Below, in pieces: positions 851 through 24,482 of a DNA stretch of 24,482 nucleotides. Position 1 is the stretch's first letter. Every line of letters starts with the position of its first letter. The position numbers were made by a program, and so were the translations under genes. Location of the stretch: positions 1 through 24,482 of IMG/VR virus record IMGVR_UViG_3300025930_000367; one strand, written 5' to 3'. Source of the DNA: a virus. The notes under the pieces are model-generated. The model saw only the letters and a program-made list of their open reading frames with translations. It made no database searches and was not told the DNA's origin.

Positions 851-1153
851 TTACCGCACTCTTCTCGGTCCAAACCACTCAGTCATCCTGTTGTTCGGCT
901 GCTGCGTTTGCATCGCCTGCCGATAGCGCAGAAGCGCCTGCCCGACTCGTTGCCGCTGCGCATCTTGATCCAGCACAGCAGGATCTACCGGAGCTATCGC
1001 AGACGTGCCACGCGAATTGGGCTGTGGCACTGGCGGTATAGGCCCGAAGGTCTCAGGGGGCGCTTGTGCGGTGCCCGCGCCGCCAAGGAAGCCGGGGAGC
1101 CAACTCTGCCGGCCAGCCCAAGAGCCGATATCATCGAACCAGCCTCCGCTCAT
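851..1153 (-). CDS. Hypothetical protein, 100 aa
   Basis: The protein starts MSGGWFDDIGSWAGRQSWLP, has a Gly/Pro-rich middle and a basic helical C-terminal half (about residues 55-100, QRQRVGQALLRYRQAMQ). Its ATG overlaps the TGA of the upstream HNH gene (ATGA), and a GGAGG site about 8 nt before the ATG lies inside the HNH 3' end. If the HNH gene is an insertion, this gene would originally have followed the large terminase through the same type of overlap. Function unknown; a small structural protein is plausible from context. Confidence 0.68.
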   Translation of the reverse strand: MSGGWFDDIGSWAGRQSWLPGFLGGAGTAQAPPETFGPIPPVPQPNSRGTSAIAPVDPAVLDQDAQRQRVGQALLRYRQAMQTQQPNNRMTEWFGPRRVR

Positions 1154-1512
1154 GGTGCTACCCTCCAGTGATTAGGCCTCCAATTAGGCCCTCGAGATTG
1201 CCGAGTATTCTGCCTACCCATAGCGAACATATCCTGCATATTGTCGCTACGAGTTCCTTCGTAGAGGTGCTCAAAACAAATACAGTGCCGTTTCGTACAA
1301 TCTCGCGTATGGAGCGCGTGCTTGCCGGGGGCTATCTCTCTGCGGAGATAAATTGTCAGCGCCACGCGATGAACTCGTTCTGGCCGCCTACGAAACACGT
1401 AAGCACCATAGCCATTCGGCCTTATATAGCCAGTCCAGAGCAAATGACCGTCTTTCCACTCTGTCATGCTCCAAAAGCGAACCAAATGCGCTTCTGTGAA
1501 ATGTTCCATCAT
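1150..1512 (-). CDS. HNH homing endonuclease, downstream of terminase
   Basis: The product is about 120 residues from the ATG at 1512 (MMEHFTEAHLVRFW). It shows an HNH_3-like order: a WTGYI..NGYGAY strand, an HRVAL helix, the LHTRDC..HCICFEHL histidine/cysteine core and the GTRSDNMQDM tail. HNH proteins of this type nick or cut DNA and are usually selfish homing genes in phages. The longer frame from a TTG at 1527 is less likely, because the ATG overlaps the terminase stop (ATGA) as elsewhere in the operon. The C-terminus WRVAP copies the terminase C-terminus, and the surrounding 18 bp are nearly duplicated at both ends of the gene (see findings). The catalytic core looks intact. Confidence 0.85.
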   Translation of the reverse strand: MMEHFTEAHLVRFWSMTEWKDGHLLWTGYIRPNGYGAYVFRRRPERVHRVALTIYLRREIAPGKHALHTRDCTKRHCICFEHLYEGTRSDNMQDMFAMGRQNTRQSRGPNWRPNHWRVAP

Positions 1513-3179
1513 GGCGCTACCCGCCAACCCTCATTAAATTCCTCTGTATCAACCGGGTCTTCCTGAACTTCGTCCTCATTACCCGATCCAGCCCCCGCAA
1601 CAGGATCGAGGAGCGCGATAGCCCCGGCCAAGCCGTCAGGATGATCATCGTGCACCCCTGATGGGAAGTCCAGGAGCTGACTTTCAAGCTCCGGGATCGG
1701 TACGTAGTGCTGAATATACCCGTTGCTGTACCGAGGCTGCAAAACGCCCTTAATCCGCGTATACTTCGATGTTTTAGAGCCATGTATGATGGGCAGAATG
1801 TCGAAGTAGTGCTTTTTCTTGAACATTTCCGCCCTAATGAGGTGTATCAGCGCCGCCTGATACTGATTTGCCTCCACTCCGTGATGAGATGCGCCGTAGC
1901 GCTTGCTATAATTGAAGAATGCGTCGATAATATCTCTCGGTTTCGCGCCTCTCTGCGCCCAAGGTGCCGGAACGAAGATCCTACCGGTTTTAAGCGACAT
2001 TCCAACGGCATAGACCACCGAGCTATCTGCACGTTTTGCCTCTGAGATGGCCGGATCGCAGTAAACTGCCCAAATCAGGGAGCCATCTTCCGGCGTGGGC
2101 GGCCCGTAGCGGAAAAACCGCTGCTGGAAGATCTGAGTTTCCTCTGCTCGGACCTGATTATGGTATTCCAGGTAGAAAGTTGATAGCTCTCCCGCTCGCG
2201 TGAAGCTCCGTTTTTCTGCTTCCAGCCGCTCTACCGACATATTCTCGGGCCAAATCGGCTTCCCAGCCCGATCAAGGGCTCCAAACCGTATCACACTGAA
2301 CTTCGGGTCGTTAGCCCAAGTCATCAATAGACTTGCTGGATGAAGAACAGTACCAATAACAACCATAGCAGCAAGAGGATCAAGCGCAGGTAGGCATGGA
2401 AGTAGATCCCCATACCCCCAAACGCGCATTTTCTTCCGCTGCTCTTCAGTTGAAACACTTTCTCGGTCCTCCACATCATCGACCTTCACCTTCTGTGGTC
2501 GTATTCCTTGAAGGTTAAGACCTCTGATCTGCGCTCCCGCACCTCTCGCGACCATAGCACAGGAGTTCGTGGTTTCAAAGATGTCAACAGACCAATGCTT
2601 CCCGGTCGAACGCTCTGGTTTAAGTATCCCGAAGTCGTGGAGGATGCGAGTATTCGCCTCGAGTTCTCTTTTAACATTCTCAAGTTGTGTTTCAGCGTGA
2701 GGGGCGGCGTGAGAAACATAAGCTGAAAGCTGAACAAGCTGATAGCAGATATCTCTGATACTATCAGCGATGCCACAAATAGTTGTCTTAGAGAAACCTC
2801 GAGGTAGTAGAACCAAGGTGTGGGTTCCCAAGTACATCCTAAGTATCCCATCTGCACCTCGTTCAAAGATCCTATACGTTTTTCCATCTCGTTCCATTAT
2901 AAAGTTATCAATAATCCAGTCTATATCTCCATATGCCTCTAAAAAAGCAGTCTGTCTTGTCAAAATTGCAAGCAGCCCTCTGTGTACCGGAGGTATAGGA
3001 GCGGGAAACATATGTTCTAGATAGTACCTACAAAAGAGAACTGGGTCATCATAACATGCGGAGACACGCTCTTTAACAGATAGAGCTGCTAACGTAGAAA
3101 GAAGTGCTTCTCCCTTTAACGCTGTCTCCACGACCTCACTCCAGCTCTGTGTAGAACTGCCATAATAGTATTTTCGCAC
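1509..3179 (-). CDS. terL: Terminase large subunit (packaging ATPase and nuclease)
   Basis: This is the DNA-packaging motor. The 556-residue protein has a Walker A motif LLPRGFSKTT (residues 124-133), a Walker B/catalytic segment VKVDDVED (231-238), and a C-terminal RNase H-fold nuclease with acidic residues in YCDPAISE (D375), GVEANQ (E436) and VHDDHPDG (511-515). The length is normal for TerL. The given ATG at 3179 lies 64 nt inside the upstream HNH gene; a GTG at 3131 with GGAG about 7 nt upstream is an alternative. The N-terminal third of the gene is visibly more AT-rich than the C-terminal part, matching the adjacent HNH gene and suggesting co-conversion or imported DNA. The stop overlaps the second HNH gene. 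Confidence 0.93.
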   Translation of the reverse strand: MRKYYYGSSTQSWSEVVETALKGEALLSTLAALSVKERVSACYDDPVLFCRYYLEHMFPAPIPPVHRGLLAILTRQTAFLEAYGDIDWIIDNFIMERDGKTYRIFERGADGILRMYLGTHTLVLLPRGFSKTTICGIADSIRDICYQLVQLSAYVSHAAPHAETQLENVKRELEANTRILHDFGILKPERSTGKHWSVDIFETTNSCAMVARGAGAQIRGLNLQGIRPQKVKVDDVEDRESVSTEEQRKKMRVWGYGDLLPCLPALDPLAAMVVIGTVLHPASLLMTWANDPKFSVIRFGALDRAGKPIWPENMSVERLEAEKRSFTRAGELSTFYLEYHNQVRAEETQIFQQRFFRYGPPTPEDGSLIWAVYCDPAISEAKRADSSVVYAVGMSLKTGRIFVPAPWAQRGAKPRDIIDAFFNYSKRYGASHHGVEANQYQAALIHLIRAEMFKKKHYFDILPIIHGSKTSKYTRIKGVLQPRYSNGYIQHYVPIPELESQLLDFPSGVHDDHPDGLAGAIALLDPVAGAGSGNEDEVQEDPVDTEEFNEGWRVAP

Positions 3180-3574
3180 ACAGCAAACTGTTTTGCAAGT
3201 TTCATTTGTCCATACTTATACGGCACATACAGCTTTAATATTTCAGATATCTGTTCTTTTGTCAGCTTGTACATACGTCCTTGTACAGAAGCATCATACA
3301 TGTTTCGTGCTTGTGTATCAGCCATAAGATGCTCTATGCGGACACATGCACGATTATTACAACTATGTAGTACTCCAAGCTCATTTGGAATAGCTCCGTT
3401 GTGTATGCGATACGCTACCCTATGGGCCAAATGCTGTCCACCAGCATCACGAATAGTAAAAGTACCATAACCATTTGCATTTTTAGGTCCCAGCCACTCA
3501 TAACAAGAGTGAAACGGGATATATGCTATTAGTGCTTCAAATCTGTTTATCGTTTCTGCTGTATAAAATTGCAT
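3116..3574 (-). CDS. HNH homing endonuclease with C-terminal HTH, upstream of terminase
   Basis: This starts at the ATG at 3574 (MQFYTAETINRFEALI), one base after the stop of the preceding gene; longer readings run into that gene and are unlikely. The 152-residue product shows EWLGPKNANGYGTF, an HRVAYRIHNG helix, the HNH core LHSCNNRACVRIEHL and the ARNMYDASVQGR tail. A C-terminal KLTKEQISEILKLY plus helix-turn-helix segment follows, as in homing enzymes with DNA-binding modules. Base composition is clearly AT-rich against the GC-rich neighbours, a sign of recent acquisition. The 3' end overlaps the terminase reading frame by 64 nt, so the terminase start was probably remodelled at insertion. 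Confidence 0.86.
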   Translation of the reverse strand: MQFYTAETINRFEALIAYIPFHSCYEWLGPKNANGYGTFTIRDAGGQHLAHRVAYRIHNGAIPNELGVLHSCNNRACVRIEHLMADTQARNMYDASVQGRMYKLTKEQISEILKLYVPYKYGQMKLAKQFAVCENTIMAVLHRAGVRSWRQR

Positions 3575-3575
3575 A

Positions 3576-4016
3576 CTACATCCCGAAGTTCGTCTGCCTG
3601 ATCGGCGGAGTGAACTGCCGTCCACCCAGGCCGGCCAGTTGCGGAGCCAGCTTCGACACGTCAAACGTATACTGGCTCGGTCCTACCGGCCCACCTGTCG
3701 GCATGTACGGTGCTTGCGGCGGAGAAGGCGGCATACCCGGCCGGACAACGCCTGGAGGTGCGTGCCCGGCCGGCGGAGCCCCCGGCCTCATCTGCGGGCC
3801 AGTCGGCGCGCCGGGGTTCGGCCCTGTCGGCGTAGGCAGCTGCGCTTGCGGCGCTGTTACCTGGTTCGCTATCTGCATCGAAGTATTCGGGTCACCTCCA
3901 GAGAACATCGCCGGCGCGCTCTGCGTAAGCGGAGCCTTGATCAGTCCTGTAAGAAGCTGATCAAGCGGAACTTGGCCCGGCTGTGCCGGGCCAAGACCAG
4001 GAAGACCTCCACCCAT
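3576..4016 (-). CDS. Pro/Gly-rich protein, probably disordered
   Basis: The 146-residue product starts MGGGLPGLGPAQPGQVPLDQ. Residues about 50-115 are dominated by Pro, Gly and Ala (for example GPNPGAPTGPQMRPGAPP), a low-complexity composition typical of disordered virion or linker proteins. It lies 2 nt after the stop of the 4019-4489 gene and 1 nt before the HNH start, so it is co-transcribed. No family is recognised. The long plus-strand frame opposite it lacks domain signal and is treated as a shadow. Confidence 0.62.
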   Translation of the reverse strand: MGGGLPGLGPAQPGQVPLDQLLTGLIKAPLTQSAPAMFSGGDPNTSMQIANQVTAPQAQLPTPTGPNPGAPTGPQMRPGAPPAGHAPPGVVRPGMPPSPPQAPYMPTGGPVGPSQYTFDVSKLAPQLAGLGGRQFTPPIRQTNFGM

Positions 4017-4524: not shown

Positions 4525-5205
4525 CTACGCTACAAGGCCCTCCTTCTTCCGCCGGCGCAGAACGCCGAGGCCGAGCAGGCTAGCCCCGAACAGGGCAATT
4601 GAGGCCGGCTCGGGAACCTCGAATGCCGAAGCATTGCCAGAGACGGAAGCTGTAAAGCTGTTGATCGTCTGCCCAGTGTTGCAGCCAGGGTTGCTCGCCG
4701 TGCAGGCCACCAGGCTGACCGGCGGCGCCACGTTAGTAAACGAGAACCCGAGCGCGTTGGGCTCGCCAAGTGCCTGGATAACGCTCGAGGTGAACGTCAC
4801 GTCAGGCGCTGCGACGACAATCTGCACTGCTCCATTCGCGGTCAGCGCGCCGTCAGAAAAACTGCCCGACAGGTAATTGACGGCGCAGCCAGCGGCCGTC
4901 GAGCAGATACTGAAAGTCCCAGCGAACTCCTGGGTGATAAACGGCCCGACAGTGTTCGCGCCGCCGATCGAGTGCGCGCTGACATCCAAAAAGGCACTGA
5001 ACGGCGTAGCCGGACCGTTCGGTGCGATCTGCGTCACGGTGACAGGGATGTCCGTGCCGCCCCAGACTGTCCCAGTGGCGCTAGCCGTGCCGGTGATCGT
5101 GTTTCCGCTGCCCGACTGGCCGTAGGTGATGATAACGTCGGCTGCGGCTGGCTGAACAAGGGCCAGCGCGGCAACAGCGATAGCACCAAACAGAAGCCTC
5201 TTCAT
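4525..5205 (-). CDS. Secreted PEP-CTERM sorting-domain protein
   Basis: The 226-residue protein has a Sec signal peptide (MKRLLFGAIAVAALALVQ, cleavage likely after AAA near residue 22). The mature region is beta-rich with many Gly, Ser, Thr and Asn and Cys pairs in SICSTAAGC and ACTASNPGC. It ends with a textbook PEP-CTERM signal at about residues 197-221: VPEP, a hydrophobic helix (ASIALFGASLLGLGVL) and an RRRKK basic cluster. Known biology: host exosortases recognise this tail and process surface or exopolysaccharide-associated proteins. AGGAG lies about 8 nt before the ATG. It sits inside the phage structural operon, so it is either a cargo (moron) gene altering the host surface or a virion decoration protein; the sequence cannot decide. 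The fold of the central region is not recognised. Confidence 0.9.
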   Translation of the reverse strand: MKRLLFGAIAVAALALVQPAAADVIITYGQSGSGNTITGTASATGTVWGGTDIPVTVTQIAPNGPATPFSAFLDVSAHSIGGANTVGPFITQEFAGTFSICSTAAGCAVNYLSGSFSDGALTANGAVQIVVAAPDVTFTSSVIQALGEPNALGFSFTNVAPPVSLVACTASNPGCNTGQTINSFTASVSGNASAFEVPEPASIALFGASLLGLGVLRRRKKEGLVA

Positions 5206-7847: not shown

Positions 7848-8387
7848 ATGCCTATCACTATGACTCTGCCCGATGAAATCACGTATTCGGTTCCCGGGCT
7901 GGAAGCGTTTGTACACTCGCTCGCAGACCATACTCCCGAAATGATTGTGCGCGGCTTCGCGCATGGGATGCGGCAGGTGATTATCGACGCGCGTTCTATC
8001 ACGCGCGAAGACCAGGCCGAAATGACGGTGGAACAGGTTTCCAAGTGGAAACACGACAAGGCGATGACTGCCTTTGCCAATCGCCTCGCGTGGCTTCGGG
8101 CGGACCCGCGTATCCAGTCGGATGACACCATCTGGATGGGCGAATGTCGGGATTTCCTGAAACTGCTTGGTGTCGGCGCCAAGACGCGCATGGCCCTCAA
8201 GACGGTGGCGGATGGCAAAGCCGCCCTTATCGCGGCGGGCGGACCAATCGCCGGCGAGTCGTACATCTTGGCGGTCACGCATAACGCGGATACCAAGAAA
8301 GCGACTCTCGCCAACGGGCGGGCGGCCGTTGCGGCAATGGTGGAAGCGGCGCTCGCGGCCAAGGCAGCGGCCGAAGCGGCGGAATAA
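7848..8387 (+). CDS. First rightward-operon protein, unknown function
   Basis: The 179-residue protein starts MPITMTLPDEITYSVPGLEA. It has a charged helical middle (VEQVSKWKHDKAMTAFANRL) and an Ala-rich C-terminal helix (about residues 155-179). AAAGGA lies about 8 nt upstream, and a strong terminator-like hairpin follows 18 nt after the stop, making this a single-gene unit. As the first gene after the divergent control region it may be expressed early or highly. I do not recognise a family and see no catalytic motif, signal peptide or membrane segment. Confidence 0.75.
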   Translation: MPITMTLPDEITYSVPGLEAFVHSLADHTPEMIVRGFAHGMRQVIIDARSITREDQAEMTVEQVSKWKHDKAMTAFANRLAWLRADPRIQSDDTIWMGECRDFLKLLGVGAKTRMALKTVADGKAALIAAGGPIAGESYILAVTHNADTKKATLANGRAAVAAMVEAALAAKAAAEAAE

Positions 8388-8405
8388 CCCGCCCGGCAGC
8401 CGGTT

Positions 8406-8429
8406 CCCCCGGGGCATTTGCCCCGGGGG
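8406..8429 (+). terminator. Strong hairpin terminator or attenuator
   Basis: CCCCCGGGGCA (8406-8416) and TGCCCCGGGGG (8419-8429) form an 11-bp perfect stem, with only TTCC rather than a long T-run after it. A GGTACC-rich imperfect dyad follows, so it may also act as an mRNA stabiliser or partial terminator. Confidence 0.65.
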
Positions 8430-8475
8430 TTCCGGGTACCGGACTGGTACCGTTCACCCAGAAGGAACAGCTAGA

Positions 8476-8685
8476 ATGAACGTCAACTACATCCATGCCA
8501 TGCTCCCCCCGGAAGGTCAGCGCATGGTCGAAGAGGTCATCCTGCGCGAGCTGCGCAACATATCGGCGGCCGTGGCGCGCGAGTGTGGCTCGCCGGACGG
8601 AGAGCTTCCCCTCAACCTCCTCAAAGATCTCTCGTCGGCCGCCAGCCTCTACCGGACCATCTTGGTCCGAATGCGGACCCGGTGA
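8476..8685 (+). CDS. Small helical hypothetical protein
   Basis: The 69-residue product starts MNVNYIHAMLPPEGQRMVEE and is mostly helical (EEVILRELRNISAAVAREC, LLKDLSSAASLYRTILVRMR). AAGGA lies 9 nt before the ATG within the leader AGAAGGAACAG that recurs at 9982 and 10215. Longer in-frame readings cross the terminator hairpin and are rejected. It has no recognised family. Confidence 0.65.
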   Translation: MNVNYIHAMLPPEGQRMVEEVILRELRNISAAVARECGSPDGELPLNLLKDLSSAASLYRTILVRMRTR

Positions 8686-8686
8686 C

Positions 8687-8746
8687 ATGCTGCTTGCAGC
8701 CCTCTGCCTCTTCATGATCGCTGCATTCGTTTACCTGAACCGTTGA
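8687..8746 (+). CDS. Tiny single-span membrane peptide
   Basis: This 19-residue reading (MLLAALCLFMIAAFVYLNR) starts one base after the previous stop and ends just before the terminator at 8751. It is almost wholly one membrane helix with a positive end. Similar tiny membrane peptides occur at 12850, 14386 and 18190 in this window, which raises the odds that it is real, but it is very short and has no clear ribosome site of its own. Confidence 0.4.
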   Translation: MLLAALCLFMIAAFVYLNR

Positions 8747-8750
8747 GAGG

Positions 8751-8776
8751 GCGGCCGCTGAAAGGCGGCCGCTTTT
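8751..8776 (+). terminator. Rho-independent terminator
   Basis: GCGGCCGC (8751-8758), a 6-nt loop, GCGGCCGC (8765-8772) and TTTT (8773-8776) followed by CT. It ends the unit of 8476-8746. Confidence 0.8.
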
Positions 8777-8783
8777 CTACTGT

Positions 8784-8796
8784 CCCCCTACGGGGG
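8784..8796 (+). other. Short hairpin CCCCC-TAC-GGGGG
   Basis: A 5-bp G/C stem with a TAC loop lies between the terminator and the 21-bp direct repeats. It is one of several intergenic triloop hairpins in the window. Confidence 0.4.
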
Positions 8797-8797
8797 C

Positions 8798-8850
8798 CGC
8801 TAAGATCCTCTATTGGCCCCCAGAGGGGACGCTAAGATCCTCTATTGGCC
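8798..8850 (+). repeat. 21-bp direct repeat, two copies, 32-bp period
   Basis: A 21-bp sequence (CGCTAAGATCC followed by TCTATTGGCC) occurs identically at 8798-8818 and 8830-8850, three helical turns apart. The first copy is also enclosed by GGGGCC/GGCCCC inverted hexamers (8793-8798 and 8815-8820). This could be iteron-like or a regulator-binding site. Only two copies were found. Confidence 0.65.
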
Positions 8851-8859
8851 GAGCCGGGA

Positions 8860-8888
8860 CACCATGTTAACCGGGTAAAGTGCCCCAT
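8860..8888 (+). promoter_or_regulatory. Palindromic operator-like site, copy 1
   Basis: CACCATGTTAACCGGGTAAA followed by GTGCCCCAT. The core GTTAACCGGGTAAAG is a near-palindrome. A closely matching site lies at 16611-16639, upstream of another promoter, with the flanking CACCA and CCCCAT conserved as well. Confidence 0.6.
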
Positions 8889-8899
8889 ATGCTGTGCGG

Positions 8900-9031
8900 G
8901 TGTGCTGGATGCCGAGAGTGCTGGAATCGATTTTTGCCGGTTTCGGGGGCCTCAGTCTTATGAGAAAAAAAAAAAAATAATAACTATATAGGGCGGGAGG
9001 CCGGAAGGGTCAAAACCCGGTTCCAGCACAC
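8900..9031 (+). other. A-tract with flanking inverted repeats, candidate origin or control element
   Basis: GTGTGCTGG (8900-8908) and GTGCTGGAA (8918-8926) are inverted against CCAGCACAC (9023-9031) and TTCCAGCAC (9021-9029). Between them are a run of 13 A (8965-8977), the AT-rich stretch TAATAACTATATA (8978-8990), a GGGCGGG block, and GGGT-CAAA-ACCC (9008-9018). No convincing gene lies here. AT-rich DNA inside inverted repeats next to direct repeats fits a replication origin, but nothing proves it. Confidence 0.45.
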
Positions 9032-9073
9032 TCGACATTCAACATTCCAGTATGATCTACCCCACGATTCTCA

Positions 9074-9102
9074 TTGACTTTCCCCACAGTCCATGTTACA
9101 CT
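9074..9102 (+). promoter_or_regulatory. Sigma70-like promoter
   Basis: TTGACT (9074-9079), a 17-nt spacer, then TACACT (9097-9102). It drives the unit starting at 9137 and shows that the in-frame TTG at 9074 is part of the promoter, not a start codon. Confidence 0.72.
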
Positions 9103-9136
9103 CTTACACCATCCACCAAACCAACAGGCCCGCCCA

Positions 9137-9592
9137 ATGCCAAAACTCCGTAAGCGCCCTCGGCCCGACGAGCGTTACATTCGCGTCTGGTACACCGCCC
9201 TACACGGCCCGATCGAGATGGATGCAGCAGATCAAAAGACCGCTACAAGAATGCGGTTCCTCCTCAATCAAGCAAAGCTCGCCGACAAAGAACTCTACGA
9301 AATCAAGAACGGCCCGGTCGGCTGGCCACTCGAGATTATGACCACTGAAACTGAGAAGCGCGGCTCCACATACGTAGTGATTGTGAAGCAAGACCTGGTT
9401 GCGATCAGCGCGCTCACAGCCACTGGCCAGCTCACAACGCTGCCTGCGATAGATCCAGATGCTGCATGGGCCGCGTGCGAGGATCGGCTGCTCTCCTATC
9501 GAAACGCTGATTTTCATAAGCGCGCAGTCACTGGACATCTGACGCCAGATGATATCTTTCCAATGCCAGTGAGAGGTGATGGCCGTGAATAA
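9137..9592 (+). CDS. Hypothetical protein, 151 aa
   Basis: This starts at the ATG at 9137 (MPKLRKRPRPDERYIRVWYT), downstream of the promoter at 9074. The N-terminus is strongly basic, followed by an alpha/beta body (LEIMTTETEKRGSTYVVIVK) and a helical end. Basic N-terminal residues hint at nucleic-acid binding. Its stop overlaps the next gene by 14 nt, so the two are coupled. No family recognised. Confidence 0.7.
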   Translation: MPKLRKRPRPDERYIRVWYTALHGPIEMDAADQKTATRMRFLLNQAKLADKELYEIKNGPVGWPLEIMTTETEKRGSTYVVIVKQDLVAISALTATGQLTTLPAIDPDAAWAACEDRLLSYRNADFHKRAVTGHLTPDDIFPMPVRGDGRE

Positions 9593-9911
9593 TGAAGAAC
9601 TCGCCAAACTAATGAGGCAGCTTTCAAAACAGCTTGCTGAAGTAGCAGCGAAGCTAGATCCAAAGCCATCACAAACGGAGTCAATAGCCCTCGTATACCG
9701 CTGGGCCAAAGCAGAGTACTGTACAAATGGAAAGATTGCTATTGCTGAGAAGCATCTTCGTACAAAGCTCTTACAATCAGGAATAGCGCCTCAATACCTT
9801 GAAAGCACATTCAACGCTCTAATTCAAAGCGGCTATTTAGAGTACAAAGACGGTGACTACCCAAACAGGCATTACGCTCCGTACTTACCAAATAATTCAC
9901 AAGGTGCTTGA
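9579..9911 (+). CDS. Small protein with winged-helix-like C-terminus
   Basis: The 110-residue product starts MAVNNEELAKLMRQLSKQLA with an N-terminal amphipathic helix (possible coiled coil, residues 3-28). A helix-helix-strand segment follows (GKIAIAEKHLRTKLL..QYLESTFNALIQSGYLEYKD..RHYAPYL) that resembles a winged helix. It is AT-richer than its neighbours. The stop codon overlaps the -35 box of the promoter at 9908. A DNA-binding regulator is plausible but not shown. Confidence 0.65.
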   Translation: MAVNNEELAKLMRQLSKQLAEVAAKLDPKPSQTESIALVYRWAKAEYCTNGKIAIAEKHLRTKLLQSGIAPQYLESTFNALIQSGYLEYKDGDYPNRHYAPYLPNNSQGA

Positions 9912-9936
9912 CATCAACGGCGGATGGTGTCATGAT
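9908..9936 (+). promoter_or_regulatory. Sigma70-like promoter
   Basis: TTGACA (9908-9913), a perfect -35, a 17-nt spacer and CATGAT (9931-9936). It drives the zinc-ribbon gene at 9997, the tRNA and the following small genes. Confidence 0.72.
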
Positions 9937-9996
9937 GCGCGTGCGGGGCAAAAACCGCCCGCCTGCTACTAAACCCCTCCTAGAAGGAACAGACCA

Positions 9997-10200
9997 ATGA
10001 AACATGCTAACCCACCATCAAACTGTGACGCTTGCGAGCGCCCGATCATGCTCGTCTTCTACGACGCAGCGACGCCCCGTGGTTGGGGTAACTTCTGTCC
10101 GATGTGCTTCATCAAGCTCGGCTGCAAGCTCGGCACAGGGCGTGGACAGCGTTTCGAGCGGCCAGCAACCGGCGGGCCGTTCGAGAAAACCTCCGGCTAG
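9997..10200 (+). CDS. Small zinc-ribbon-like protein
   Basis: The 67-residue protein has two knuckles, CDACERP (C10, C13) and FCPMCF (C34, C37), a CxxC-x20-CxxC layout expected to bind one zinc ion. The remainder is basic. AAGGA lies 9 nt upstream, and a near-palindromic CCTCCTAGAAGGA covers the ribosome site. First gene of the 9908 transcript. Nucleic-acid or protein binding is likely, target unknown. Confidence 0.72.
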   Translation: MKHANPPSNCDACERPIMLVFYDAATPRGWGNFCPMCFIKLGCKLGTGRGQRFERPATGGPFEKTSG

Positions 10201-10214
10201 GCGCAAAGCGCCCT
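10199..10214 (+). other. Intergenic hairpin, second copy of the GGCGCAAAGCGCC element
   Basis: GGCGC-AAA-GCGCC (10200-10212) plus flanking A and CT repeats the element at 6294-6310 almost exactly. It begins at the stop codon of the zinc-ribbon gene and precedes the AGAAGGAAC ribosome site of the next gene. Confidence 0.55.
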
Positions 10215-10231
10215 CAGAAGGAACATACACG

Positions 10232-10417
10232 ATGCGTAAAAAGCCCGAACCAGAAATGGCTCACATCGTCGTGGATACTCGCGACGCGAGCCGCGACAAG
10301 CGTATTCCGCTGGTCGAAGCCCAGCGCCTCTACAAAGAGGGCAAACTCGCCAAGCTCGATATGGGCCAGGGCGCGTACCGCCATGCTTACGAAGAAATAA
10401 AGCGTTCGGCCCGGTAG
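10232..10417 (+). CDS. Small basic hypothetical protein
   Basis: The 61-residue product starts MRKKPEPEMAHIVVDTRDAS and continues RIPLVEAQRLYKEGKLAKLD..GAYRHAYEEIKR. AAGGA lies about 9 nt before the ATG. The VEAQRLYKEGKL segment looks like a helical hairpin that could contact nucleic acid. It ends 11 nt before the tRNA gene. Function unknown. Confidence 0.7.
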   Translation: MRKKPEPEMAHIVVDTRDASRDKRIPLVEAQRLYKEGKLAKLDMGQGAYRHAYEEIKRSAR

Positions 10418-10428
10418 ACAGGCCGTGA

Positions 10429-10502
10429 TCCCCGATCGTCTAAAGGTAGGACACTGGATTTTGGTTCCAGGTATGCCGGTTCGACTCCAGCTCGGGGAGC
10501 CA
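10429..10502 (+). tRNA. tRNA-Gln (anticodon UUG)
   Basis: A full cloverleaf can be drawn: acceptor TCCCCGA (10429-10435) with TCGGGGA (10492-10498); D stem GTC/GAC; anticodon stem CTGGA (10454-10458) with TCCAG (10466-10470) and loop TTTTGGT carrying TTG at 10461-10463; T arm GCCGG-TTCGACT-CCAGC with one C-A mismatch; discriminator G and an encoded CCA (10500-10502). It reads CAA codons and sits inside the 9908 operon, so it must be processed from a polycistronic RNA. Confidence 0.93.
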
Positions 10503-10532
10503 TCCGAAAACCTCCTAGAAGGACACTTCACA

Positions 10533-10841
10533 ATGCAGCCCACTGAACTCAGCAATTCCTGCGCCCAGCTCGAGGCCGCCTTACTCGAAAAGGCCCCGAT
10601 CAAGAGCCATCTCGCATACGTCACGCTCAACATCGAGATCAGCGGCCACGTGATAGAGTATCGTTTGTCCGCCTGTTTGTGGAAGCCCGGCACAAAGCCT
10701 GAGGAGGCACCGTTCAACGCCTACATGCGGGGTAAGGACCCGTATAAACTACTCGACAAGCTGTCCAGGGACATCGAAGTGTTCGAGCTGTGGACGCCCG
10801 CCGCTATCGCGGCGACCCTCGGGATCGAGGAGTCGGTCTAA
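10533..10841 (+). CDS. Hypothetical protein, 102 aa
   Basis: This starts at the ATG at 10533 (MQPTELSNSCAQLEAALLEK), 10 nt after AAGGA in the leader CCTCCTAGAAGGA shared with 9976. A strand-rich middle (YVTLNIEISGHVIEYRLSAC) is followed by helices. The stop overlaps the ATG of the next gene (TAATG). Readings that start earlier run through the tRNA gene and are rejected. No family recognised. Confidence 0.7.
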   Translation: MQPTELSNSCAQLEAALLEKAPIKSHLAYVTLNIEISGHVIEYRLSACLWKPGTKPEEAPFNAYMRGKDPYKLLDKLSRDIEVFELWTPAAIAATLGIEESV

Positions 10842-11176
10842 TGTCAAAAGCCCGTGAAGCCGTAGCATTCCTCAACCTCGGCCCGGCTACTACACGCGAG
10901 GTGATGGCAGCACTACACCTCGATGCGAAACAGGCCGGGAACCTATTGAACAGCCTTCGGCTCAGGAGCCTGGCCGAACACAACAAGGACACCGGCCGTT
11001 GGCAGCTCCGAGACCGTCGGCACAAGGTGCCGGTGATCCGGCTGTCCGCATGGGCTGTCACACCGGCCTTGCTCGACCAGATCGAGGCGTCCGTCAGGGA
11101 GATTGATGAGTTCGTCGGCTCGTCCTCAGACGAACTGCTTTCTGAAATCAAGGCTGTTCGGGAGTACCTCGGATGA
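10841..11176 (+). CDS. Winged-HTH-like DNA-binding protein
   Basis: The 111-residue protein has an N-terminal helix-turn-helix reading: AREAVAFLNLGPATTREVMA, then HLDAKQAGNLLNSLRLRSLA, then a wing GRWQLRD. This fits an MarR- or ArsR-like winged helix. The C-terminal half (LDQIEASVREIDEFVG..LLSEIKAVREYL) is helical and may dimerise. It is coupled to both neighbours by start/stop overlaps. A phage transcription regulator is likely; target unknown. Confidence 0.68.
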   Translation: MSKAREAVAFLNLGPATTREVMAALHLDAKQAGNLLNSLRLRSLAEHNKDTGRWQLRDRRHKVPVIRLSAWAVTPALLDQIEASVREIDEFVGSSSDELLSEIKAVREYLG

Positions 11177-21779: not shown

Positions 21780-23039
21780 ATGCGGATATCCGACATCAAG
21801 GTCGAAGATCGGCAACGCTCTGCTATCGATCCGGCCCAATTAGACGAGCTGAAGGCGAGCATAGCCCGGAACGGCCTGCTGCATCCGATAGTAGTTGACC
21901 GAAGCGGGAGGCTGCTTGCCGGGCAGCGCCGTCTCGAGGCGCATAAGGCCCTCGGCCTGAAAGAAATTGCAGTCACCCTCTGGGAAGATCTCCCCGAAAA
22001 CGAGCGAAAGATCATCGAGCTGGAGGAGAACCTCAAGCGGAGCGACCTCGACTGGAAAGACCAAGTGAAGGCGATACGGCAGCTGCATGACGCTTACACG
22101 GCCACTCAGCCGGATTGGACGGCCGCTCGCACCGCGACAGCCCTGAACGTCACGCCCGCCTTCGTCAGCCGTATGCTGACCGTCGAGCAGGAAATCAAGA
22201 AGAACCCTGAACTGCTAAGGGAAACCTCTGCCAAGGCTATCTACAACCAGTACGCACGCCGGCAAGCCCGTGATATTGATGCAGCTATCACCGATCAACT
22301 GATGCCGATGGGACCAGTGGCGCCGAAGGCGCCTTTCGAGTTGTACTGTGCTGATTTCCTTTCCTGGGCTATAGCTTATGACGAAAGGCCCTTCAATGTG
22401 CTACACTGTGACTTCCCATACGGACTGTCTATGCACGACGCACAGATGCAGGCTTCTCGTCAGTCAGATCGCTATGACGACCGGCCAGAATTATTCTTCC
22501 AGCTCCTCGACACTTTGCTCATCGCTCGCCATAAACTTTTCGCACCCGCTGGGCACATGGTCTTCTGGACCGCTGCTAAACACCGAGCCGCTGCGGCTGG
22601 GCGGTTTAGGTCCGAACCTGGGTTCGTTGTAGATGAGTACCCGCTTATCTGGCATAAAGCAGACCTGGCAGGCATTATACCGGACCCCAGACGAGGGCCC
22701 AGGCGGACTTATGAAATGGCCCTCTTCATCACATGGGGAGACCGTTTTATCGTTAGGCCCGTTTCCAATTCTATCTCTCACCCTCGGGGCGCTTCTGACA
22801 GCGAGCACATTTCTGAAAAGCCCCTCCAGGTTGTTGAGCATTTCCTCTCCATGCTGGTCGACGAGAACACAGACCTCCTTGACCCTACCTGCGGTTCTGG
22901 AACAGCCATTGCAGCAGCGGTTAGCCTCAAAGCAAGACGCGCTGTTGGCCTTGATAGTGAGCAGAAATACGTGGACCTCTCTCACCACACCGTCAGACGC
23001 CGGCTGGCCACAGATACCATAATTGAGGGCATAGTATGA
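21780..23039 (+). CDS. ParB-like domain fused to a DNA methyltransferase
   Basis: The 419-residue protein has an N-terminal ParB/sulfiredoxin-like domain (residues 1-90: NGLLHPIVVD, LLAGQRRLEAHKALG, ELEENLKRSDLDW) and a helix-turn-helix (TAARTATALNVTPAFVSRML, 114-133). The methyltransferase follows, with motif IV DFPYG (211-215) before motif I LDPTCGSGTAI (367-377), the beta-class order for N6-adenine or N4-cytosine methylation. DFPY instead of DPPY is a tolerated-looking variant. Likely roles are self-methylation against host restriction or regulation. GGAG lies 6 nt upstream. Its stop overlaps the next ATG. Confidence 0.88.
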   Translation: MRISDIKVEDRQRSAIDPAQLDELKASIARNGLLHPIVVDRSGRLLAGQRRLEAHKALGLKEIAVTLWEDLPENERKIIELEENLKRSDLDWKDQVKAIRQLHDAYTATQPDWTAARTATALNVTPAFVSRMLTVEQEIKKNPELLRETSAKAIYNQYARRQARDIDAAITDQLMPMGPVAPKAPFELYCADFLSWAIAYDERPFNVLHCDFPYGLSMHDAQMQASRQSDRYDDRPELFFQLLDTLLIARHKLFAPAGHMVFWTAAKHRAAAAGRFRSEPGFVVDEYPLIWHKADLAGIIPDPRRGPRRTYEMALFITWGDRFIVRPVSNSISHPRGASDSEHISEKPLQVVEHFLSMLVDENTDLLDPTCGSGTAIAAAVSLKARRAVGLDSEQKYVDLSHHTVRRRLATDTIIEGIV

Positions 23040-24022
23040 GCGGCCGCTGGTCTGACTCACTCGTCCCTGGTGCGCCTTTAATGGTCGTAGGAGAAGCATT
23101 TGCAGAAACAGAAGAAGTCACTGGCTCCCCGCTCACCGGCCGGTACGGCCACGCTCTCTTTCAGCTGTTCCGAAACGTTGGGCTCAAGCGAGCCGATCTT
23201 TCTCTATCAAACGTCTTCAATGAACGACCTCCTGGAGATGTCATTTCTCGTCTCTGGGAGAACGATGAGATCCGTGAAAGCGCGCTACAGCGCTTAGGAA
23301 AGGAAATCGACGTTGCTAAGCCGAACCTTATATTGGCGATGGGGAATACCGCACTCCGTGCCCTCACCGGTCTCACTGGAGTCTCCTCCATACGGGGCCA
23401 CTGTCTACTGGGCACTCTCCGCCCAGTTAAGGTGCTACCGACCCTCCTCTCTATCTTCCAAGGAGCGACTGCCCGCGCTAATGTCCAGGTGGATATCATC
23501 AAGGCGAAACGTGAGAGTGCTTTTCCTGAGGTGCGGCACACTCATAAAACGCTCTGGCTCGAACCGACGCTCACAGACCTCCTCCTCTTCGAGGAATACT
23601 ACTTGGAGTCCGCCAGTTACATCGCCTGCGATATTGAGACGACGGGAAGCAAACTTATTACAATGGTGGGTCTGGCGGCTCGCCCTAGTCTCGGCATCGT
23701 CATCCCCTTCGTTGACCGTTCCAAGCCGGGCTACCACTACTGGGAAACGCGAGAGGAAGAAATAGCCGCATGGGCCTGGCTCCGCAAACAGCTTCACCGG
23801 CCGATCCCGAAGGTGTTTCAGAACGGCCAATACGACACTTATTGGCTGGCCCACTACGGTATCTACCCGACTGGTGGACCGATCGAAGACACCATGCTCC
23901 TTCATCATGCCCGATACAGCGAGCTGGCAAAGGATCTCGAGTCACTAGCTGCTGTGTATGCGGCCACGCCCCCCTGGAAGTCTAAACGCCCGAGAGGTTC
24001 CGATGTCGGCAAGGAGAAATAA
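23036..24022 (+). CDS. UDG-like domain plus DNA polymerase 3'-5' exonuclease (N-terminal half of split polymerase)
   Basis: The 328-residue protein has a uracil-DNA-glycosylase-like domain (residues 14-145: VVGEAFAETEEVTGSPLTG, LILAMGNTALRALTG) in which the usual His-Pro motif reads VLPTLL, suggesting loss of glycosylase activity. A family A polymerase proofreading domain follows: Exo I ACDIETTG (D199, E201), Exo II FQNGQYD (N263, D267) and IEDTMLLHHARYSELAKDLE. It ends at residue 328 just where the Exo III Tyr-x3-Asp would be expected. That motif (YNGLD) instead begins the gene at 24360. It therefore looks like the front half of a polymerase. Confidence 0.85.
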   Translation: MSGRWSDSLVPGAPLMVVGEAFAETEEVTGSPLTGRYGHALFQLFRNVGLKRADLSLSNVFNERPPGDVISRLWENDEIRESALQRLGKEIDVAKPNLILAMGNTALRALTGLTGVSSIRGHCLLGTLRPVKVLPTLLSIFQGATARANVQVDIIKAKRESAFPEVRHTHKTLWLEPTLTDLLLFEEYYLESASYIACDIETTGSKLITMVGLAARPSLGIVIPFVDRSKPGYHYWETREEEIAAWAWLRKQLHRPIPKVFQNGQYDTYWLAHYGIYPTGGPIEDTMLLHHARYSELAKDLESLAAVYAATPPWKSKRPRGSDVGKEK

Positions 24023-24432
24023 TGAGACTTCCCCTCGTCATTATCGAGAGCCGGTACGCTGCGAAAACCGCCGAGGGCCTGATCAGGAACTGGAACTATC
24101 TTCGCTTCGCCATCGCGGACTCAATCTCCCGTGGCGAGGCTCCCTTCGCTTCTCATGGCTTCTTTACGCAGATGCTGAACGATCGTTCACCAGAAGCGCG
24201 CAAACTCGGTCTACGACTAGCTGTGGAGTTCATTAAACGTGCAGATGCTATGGCGATTTATACTGACTACGGGTGGAGCCGGGGGATGCGGGCTGGCGCT
24301 CGGTGGGCTGTCCGCTTTGATCTACCACTTACTGAGCGGAAGATAGGGAGGTTAAGCAAATGGCAAAAGTCCTCCACTTTGCTGAAAACTATCCAGCCGG
24401 GGCCTCGCCCGATCAAATCTACAACGGCCTAG
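24022..24432 (+). CDS. DUF7768-like protein between polymerase halves
   Basis: The 136-residue protein starts at the ATG overlapping the previous stop (MRLPLVIIESRYAAKTAEGL). The pattern IIESRYA..., AIADSISRGEAPFASHGFFT, SPEARKLGLRLAVEFIKRAD and IYTDYGWSRGMRAGARWA matches a widespread small family I recall as DUF7768, related to nucleoside deoxyribosyltransferase-like folds; enzymatic activity is unproven. The 3' end overlaps the polymerase gene by 73 nt, and the last 30 residues look less conserved. Its place inside the polymerase locus implies insertion. Confidence 0.75.
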   Translation: MRLPLVIIESRYAAKTAEGLIRNWNYLRFAIADSISRGEAPFASHGFFTQMLNDRSPEARKLGLRLAVEFIKRADAMAIYTDYGWSRGMRAGARWAVRFDLPLTERKIGRLSKWQKSSTLLKTIQPGPRPIKSTTA

Positions 24433-24482
24433 ACGTAACTACGACAGCTGAAATCTGGGAGGCGATCCGGCACTGGCGCGAT
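24360..24482 (+). CDS. DNA polymerase C-terminal half, truncated by the right edge
   Basis: The visible 41 residues begin MAKVLHFAENYPAGASPDQI and continue YNGLDVTTTAEIWEAIRHWR. GGAGG lies 8 nt before the ATG. YNGLDVTTTAEIW matches the family A polymerase Exo III segment (Tyr-x3-Asp followed by a helix), which normally leads into the polymerase domain. The palm and finger motifs would lie beyond the window, so the call rests on this motif and on the adjacent exonuclease gene. Confidence 0.6.
   Translation, partial: MAKVLHFAENYPAGASPDQIYNGLDVTTTAEIWEAIRHWRD

Follow-up and report, generated by a model that had tools for sequence, protein, structure and literature searches.

In the LUZ24-group and phiEco32 phages, an exonuclease subunit and a family A DNA polymerase are encoded as separate genes with small genes between them (PMC3517423, PMC3890496), and most of the group of Methylophilales phages represented by MEP401 and MEP402 has a divided family A polymerase whose parts are separated by a single small ORF (PMC10580990). 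Aeromonas phages 25 and 44RR have a split polymerase, gp43A/43B, and phage Aeh1 has a split nrdA, the pieces lying beside a homing endonuclease or an intercistronic sequence; the T4-like gp43A and gp43B proteins co-purify and polymerise, which provides a precedent for the assembly of a divided polymerase (PMC2988022). An unsplit enzyme that joins UDG, exonuclease and polymerase domains has been described as PaBG gp205 (PMC7412058). Among the open-access papers searched, we found none that describes a break between the exonuclease motifs Exo II and Exo III.

Results

We analysed a stretch of viral DNA of 24,482 nucleotides, referred to here as the window, which is a complete IMG/VR contig (IMGVR_UViG_3300025930_000367) ending at position 24482, 123 nt into the C-terminal half (C half) of a divided polymerase. 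The features at the end of the window, and the full C-half gene in a longer contig, are as follows.

21780 to 23039, + strand: upstream gene, a fusion of a ParB_N domain and an N6/N4 DNA methyltransferase (Pfam PF02195, 7.7e-9; PF01555, 2.7e-9)
23036 to 24022, + strand: polymerase N-terminal half (N half), 328 residues, a UDG-like domain and an exonuclease core that has Exo I and Exo II but no Exo III (Pfam)
23630 to 23638, + strand: Exo I, codons of D199 and E201 (E. coli D355 and E357 by profile alignment to E. coli Pol I; conserved in 66/66)
23834 to 23836, + strand: Exo II, codon of D267 (E. coli D424 by profile alignment; conserved in 66/66)
24011 to 24016, + strand: ribosome-binding site AAGGAG for the cargo gene, ahead of a TAATG stop-start overlap (from sequence)
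24022 to 24432, + strand: DUF7768 cargo gene, deoxyribosyltransferase-like, 136 residues (PF24963, 3.6e-20; phrog_355, 5.6e-14)
24347 to 24351, + strand: GGAGG ribosome-binding site of the C half, 8 nt before the ATG at 24360 (from sequence)
24360 to 24482, + strand: first 41 of the 526 residues of the C half, a 20-residue extension and then Exo III, cut by the contig end
24420 to 24434, + strand: Exo III, YNGLD, with its Tyr and Asp (E. coli Y497 and D501 by profile alignment; conserved in 68/68)
9325 to 10905 of contig L007: full C-half gene with the polymerase domain

The stop codon of the methyltransferase fusion overlaps the start of the N half as ATGA; several of the unsplit relatives likewise have an annotated ParB-like or methylase gene upstream of their polymerase. 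The N half matches PF03167 over residues 11-118 (3.5e-12) and PF01612 over residues 190-310 (4.5e-5), and it carries Exo I as DIET (residues 199-202, 23630-23641) and Exo II as NGQYD (residues 263-267). The DUF7768 gene and the C-half start share a 73-nt overlap, and YNGLD occupies residues 21-25 of the 24360 frame, with its Tyr at 24420-24422 and its Asp at 24432-24434. These results bear out a first-pass annotation of the window, which had correctly placed DIET and NGQYD in a gene at 23036 that stops before Exo III, had seen the Exo III-like sequence open a gene of its own at 24360 behind a GGAGG site and had recognised a DUF7768-like gene between the two; the UDG domain of the 23036 product went unmentioned. 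The divided polymerase is thus confirmed, and it is far more general than the window shows. Elsewhere in the window, the gene at 4525-5205 (- strand) encodes a predicted secreted protein with an end, VPEPASIALFGASLLGLGVLRRRKKEGLVA, that resembles a PEP-CTERM sorting signal, which is odd for a phage contig.

Because the window is a whole contig, the palm motifs of the polymerase are not visible in it. Seven further IMG/VR records contain this region at 97-100% identity, and the split is therefore not a matter of chance. The same phage is represented by three longer contigs (L002, L004 and L007, with an N half that is 100% identical), in which the 24360 frame runs on to 526 residues and is followed by a DUF3987 gene; the C half of L007 matches PF00476 (9e-27), a domain found in all 8 genomes tested. 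Across the C halves of split loci, the Asp of motif A (58/58), the Arg and Lys of motif B (56/56) and the Asp of motif C (54/54) are all conserved, and the motif B Tyr is present in 53 of 56, with Phe in the remaining 3. Extension of the contig to the right, which had been proposed as a check, hence reveals polymerase motifs downstream of YNGLD. Motif C of the C halves reads HDA or HDS, as opposed to HDE, and motif B has His in place of E. coli Pol I F762 in 56/56 split loci; F762 governs nucleotide discrimination. We also suspect inteins in the C halves of L052, L074, L079 and L152, which contain insertions of ~290 residues that start with Cys and end in GN before Ser or Thr; the insertions in L052 and L074 are at polymerase motif B, and those in L079 and L152 are elsewhere in the polymerase domain.

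To locate the cut, we used E. coli Pol I and unsplit relatives as references. A profile of 32 N-half sequences aligns to Pol I residues 339-445, and a profile of 20 C-half sequences aligns to residues 497-924, starting exactly at Y497, and unsplit relatives (Mel-JY34, ctMlz233 and 13 IMG/VR relatives) span the cut point by a linker of 16-18 residues. As the two halves tile Pol I and the unsplit linker lies at the same point, the break falls inside the exonuclease domain. In the profile alignment, D199, E201 and D267 are equivalent to D355, E357 and D424 of Pol I, and Tyr21 and Asp25 of the C half are equivalent to Y497 and D501, which places three predicted catalytic carboxylates on the N chain and the fourth, with the tyrosine, on the C chain. 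The Y-x3-D signature of Exo III, which in a DnaQ-like exonuclease is expected in the same chain, here opens the C chain (68/68). The interpretation given in the first-pass annotation is supported by these alignments: in unsplit polymerases, Exo III comes after the stretch that corresponds to the end of the 23036 product, and the 24360 frame does continue into polymerase motifs. Judged from sequence, proofreading can soundly be expected to need two assembled polypeptides.

An AlphaFold model of the N half (pLDDT 88, pTM 0.82) matches a family 4 UDG and the Klenow exonuclease domain in Foldseek searches. The UDG-like domain of the window phage (23066-23460, + strand) is without the HP motif (residues 134-141), and it is probably inactive because most relatives retain this motif and the window phage has lost it. 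In locus L055, the halves are in frame with a single TAG between them, and the sequence read through this TAG is predicted to adopt a Klenow-like fold (pLDDT 82, pTM 0.75, TM 0.77 to 1kln over 661 columns). This joined model is an artificial single chain in which TAG readthrough is a modelling device, and its alignment had 19 full-length rows, 13 of them from unsplit relatives; a 109-row alignment that combined separate halves with the joined chain was dropped because N fragments were misplaced. The joined model supports the complementarity of the halves, not their docking.

The exonuclease residues are invariant in both halves: Asp and Glu of Exo I and Asp of Exo II in 66/66 N halves, and Tyr and Asp of Exo III in 68/68 C halves, down to about 33% identity, a conservation for which structural constraint, and not exonuclease activity, could be partly responsible. 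When the window phage was compared with a relative that is 97-98% identical to it, a pair with near-saturated silent sites, the Exo I-II part, the Exo III segment and the polymerase gave dN/dS values of 0.029, 0.017 and 0.035, respectively; both halves are under purifying selection. The N halves share a recurring tail (ending TIKRDD/E), and the C half mostly starts 20-25 residues ahead of the Exo III Tyr; the ends of the halves are settled termini rather than products of decay. Each of the 8 near-full genomes has one family A polymerase. These observations bear on the possibility that proofreading has been lost, with the N product acting as an independent UDG/nuclease-like protein and the C product as an exonuclease-deficient polymerase with a fossil Exo III. 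The degenerate UDG motifs of the window phage indicate that domains of this protein can decay, but the invariance of all catalytic exonuclease residues, a dN/dS of 0.02-0.04 in both exonuclease parts and our failure to find any other DnaQ-type exonuclease (RNase_T) in the 8 near-full genomes make such a loss quite improbable.

Among the relatives found in the first search, the N half ends before Exo III in 79/79, and wherever the contig extends far enough the C half has an ORF of its own, five contigs ending earlier. Further scans brought the collection to 198 loci, controls included, of which 118 non-redundant loci were placed in a tree; a scan of a genome collection gave two MAG matches only. 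The 94 split non-redundant loci form one clade (SH-aLRT 99), with the unsplit UDG-exonuclease-polymerase relatives outside it and with a cultured member, Caulobacter phage Kuura (OQ067476). Kuura has the same halves and the same split, its gp29, annotated as a hypothetical protein, being the N half and its gp26, annotated as a DNA polymerase, the C half; two small genes lie between them, and this cargo differs from that of the window. The paper describing Kuura makes no mention of the split (PMC9959647). Locus L168, a MAG contig, has the same split yet groups with an unsplit phage in the tree, and forcing it into the split clade was rejected (AU p 0.022), a result of moderate strength given the long branches involved; this placement suggests that the polymerase was split there a second time, independently. 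We also note that the L084 (MW202554) polymerase is divided immediately past Exo III, a small ORF separating the pieces. Some polymerases of the unsplit Mel-JY34 group (L183, L187, L188, L189 and L194; L186, L191 and L192) are broken at other positions, either in the middle of the polymerase domain or in the N-terminal part; 130-850 bp separate the pieces, and these are possibly introns.

The gap between the halves spans -4 to 2793 bp across loci. It is nil (-4 to +3) in 16 of 92 non-redundant loci, usually through an ATGA or TAATG overlap, and in the remaining 76 it holds up to several genes. We considered whether the product could be one chain after all, through intron splicing, protein splicing or a programmed frameshift or readthrough, given that group I introns are frequent in phage polymerase genes (PMC10580990, PMC3517423) and that the halves of L055 are separated by one in-frame TAG. 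However, the 16 gapless loci have no space for an intron, the genes in the other gaps argue against one there, and an Rfam search of L007 positions 8001-11000 gave no intron match. Further, the relative frames of the halves are mixed (35/33/24), an in-phase slippery heptamer occurs in just 1 of the 16 adjacent loci, and the termini of the halves lie ~10-25 residues from the junction, which is too tight for the parts of a split intein. We conclude that a single chain is very unlikely and that two chains are the simplest reading.

Deoxyribosyltransferase-like genes are the most frequent cargo and occur in 29 of the 76 gapped non-redundant loci (15 DUF7768, 14 DUF1937/DUF4406), MazG-like genes in 7 and HNH or endonuclease VII genes in at least 5. 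HNH genes lie in the gaps of L001, L022 and L052 and an endonuclease VII gene in that of L050. The DUF7768 gene of the window thus belongs to the commonest kind of cargo, and the earlier view that such an intervening gene is unusual does not hold. The gap of the window contains no endonuclease gene. L001 is near-identical to the window phage as far as the junction, where an HNH gene has been inserted after the DUF7768 gene and before the C half, and the flanks on both sides of this insertion are recoded, mostly by silent changes, a pattern that is as would be expected of homing. Mobile endonucleases, as predicted from their sequences, do enter the polymerase junction. Homing, which the first-pass annotation had set aside, is therefore a live explanation for the origin of the split, and a mobile element may plausibly have made the original cut. 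In addition, two ORFs in the window (1150-1527 and 3116-3664, both - strand) are HNH-endonuclease-like when judged by eye, so that the phage may carry several mobile endonuclease genes.

Discussion

The two halves are separate ORFs that complement each other and lie contiguously on E. coli Pol I, and they are fixed across a deep clade of phages. We consider it highly probable that they encode a family A replicative polymerase as two chains forming a heterodimer with a composite exonuclease site, an assembly and activity that we infer. In the mechanism that we propose, the N chain would contribute the UDG-like domain and an exonuclease fold bearing three of the four catalytic carboxylates, and the C chain would open with the last exonuclease helix, in which Exo III would supply the fourth carboxylate and the tyrosine, before the whole polymerase domain. 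Both chains would be made from a single operon, with frequent stop-start coupling of their translation, and would associate through the divided exonuclease fold to form a proofreading heterodimer. The cut would have arisen once in the ancestor of the clade, plausibly through a mobile endonuclease, and the junction would afterwards have served as a landing site for small genes, the DUF7768 gene of the window being one such cargo. A single origin of the cut is an incomplete account, as L168 looks like an independent second split. A further idea is that the split is a regulated device instead of a scar that the phage tolerates, in which case docking and undocking of the N chain would switch proofreading on and off and the recurring nucleotide-metabolism genes of the gap (deoxyribosyltransferase-like and MazG) would be functionally tied to the polymerase; we regard this as doubtful.

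This heterodimer would be a direct test case for a replicative polymerase that depends on an exonuclease site composed in trans, and for the effect of such an arrangement on the mutation rate. The gap is also a natural record of genes landing inside an essential enzyme, and annotation misses the split, the N half of Kuura being filed as hypothetical.

Could the locus instead be a LUZ24/phiEco32 arrangement, i.e. a complete exonuclease subunit and a separate polymerase? The broad layout is the same, with the exonuclease and polymerase genes apart and small genes between them, but in those phages the cut is between the exonuclease and polymerase domains and Exo III is on the exonuclease subunit (YCLQD in LUZ24 gp25, YCEQD in phiEco32 gp74), whereas here Exo III is on the polymerase chain in 68/68; we therefore ruled out this type, which is barely credible for the window phage. 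An assembly or sequencing artefact, which might be suspected because the window stops so soon after the C half begins, can be dismissed as practically negligible, since the identical junction is found in independent contigs, in 140 loci and in the cultured phage Kuura.

A divided polymerase of the MEP401 type was likewise ruled out, as the cut of MEP401 is inside the polymerase domain and the C half here holds that domain. The gp43A/43B pair is a family B polymerase of single phages, in contrast to the family A polymerase of a deep clade described here. The unsplit enzymes of Mel-JY34, vir526, PaBG (gp205) and phiLo (PDB 9qhs) have the same domain order and homologous sequence in one chain. 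Overall, the documented phage polymerase splits that we found lie between domains, lie in the polymerase domain or affect family B polymerases of single phages, whereas the break described here runs through the catalytic site for proofreading and is kept across a deep and diverse clade with a cultured member.
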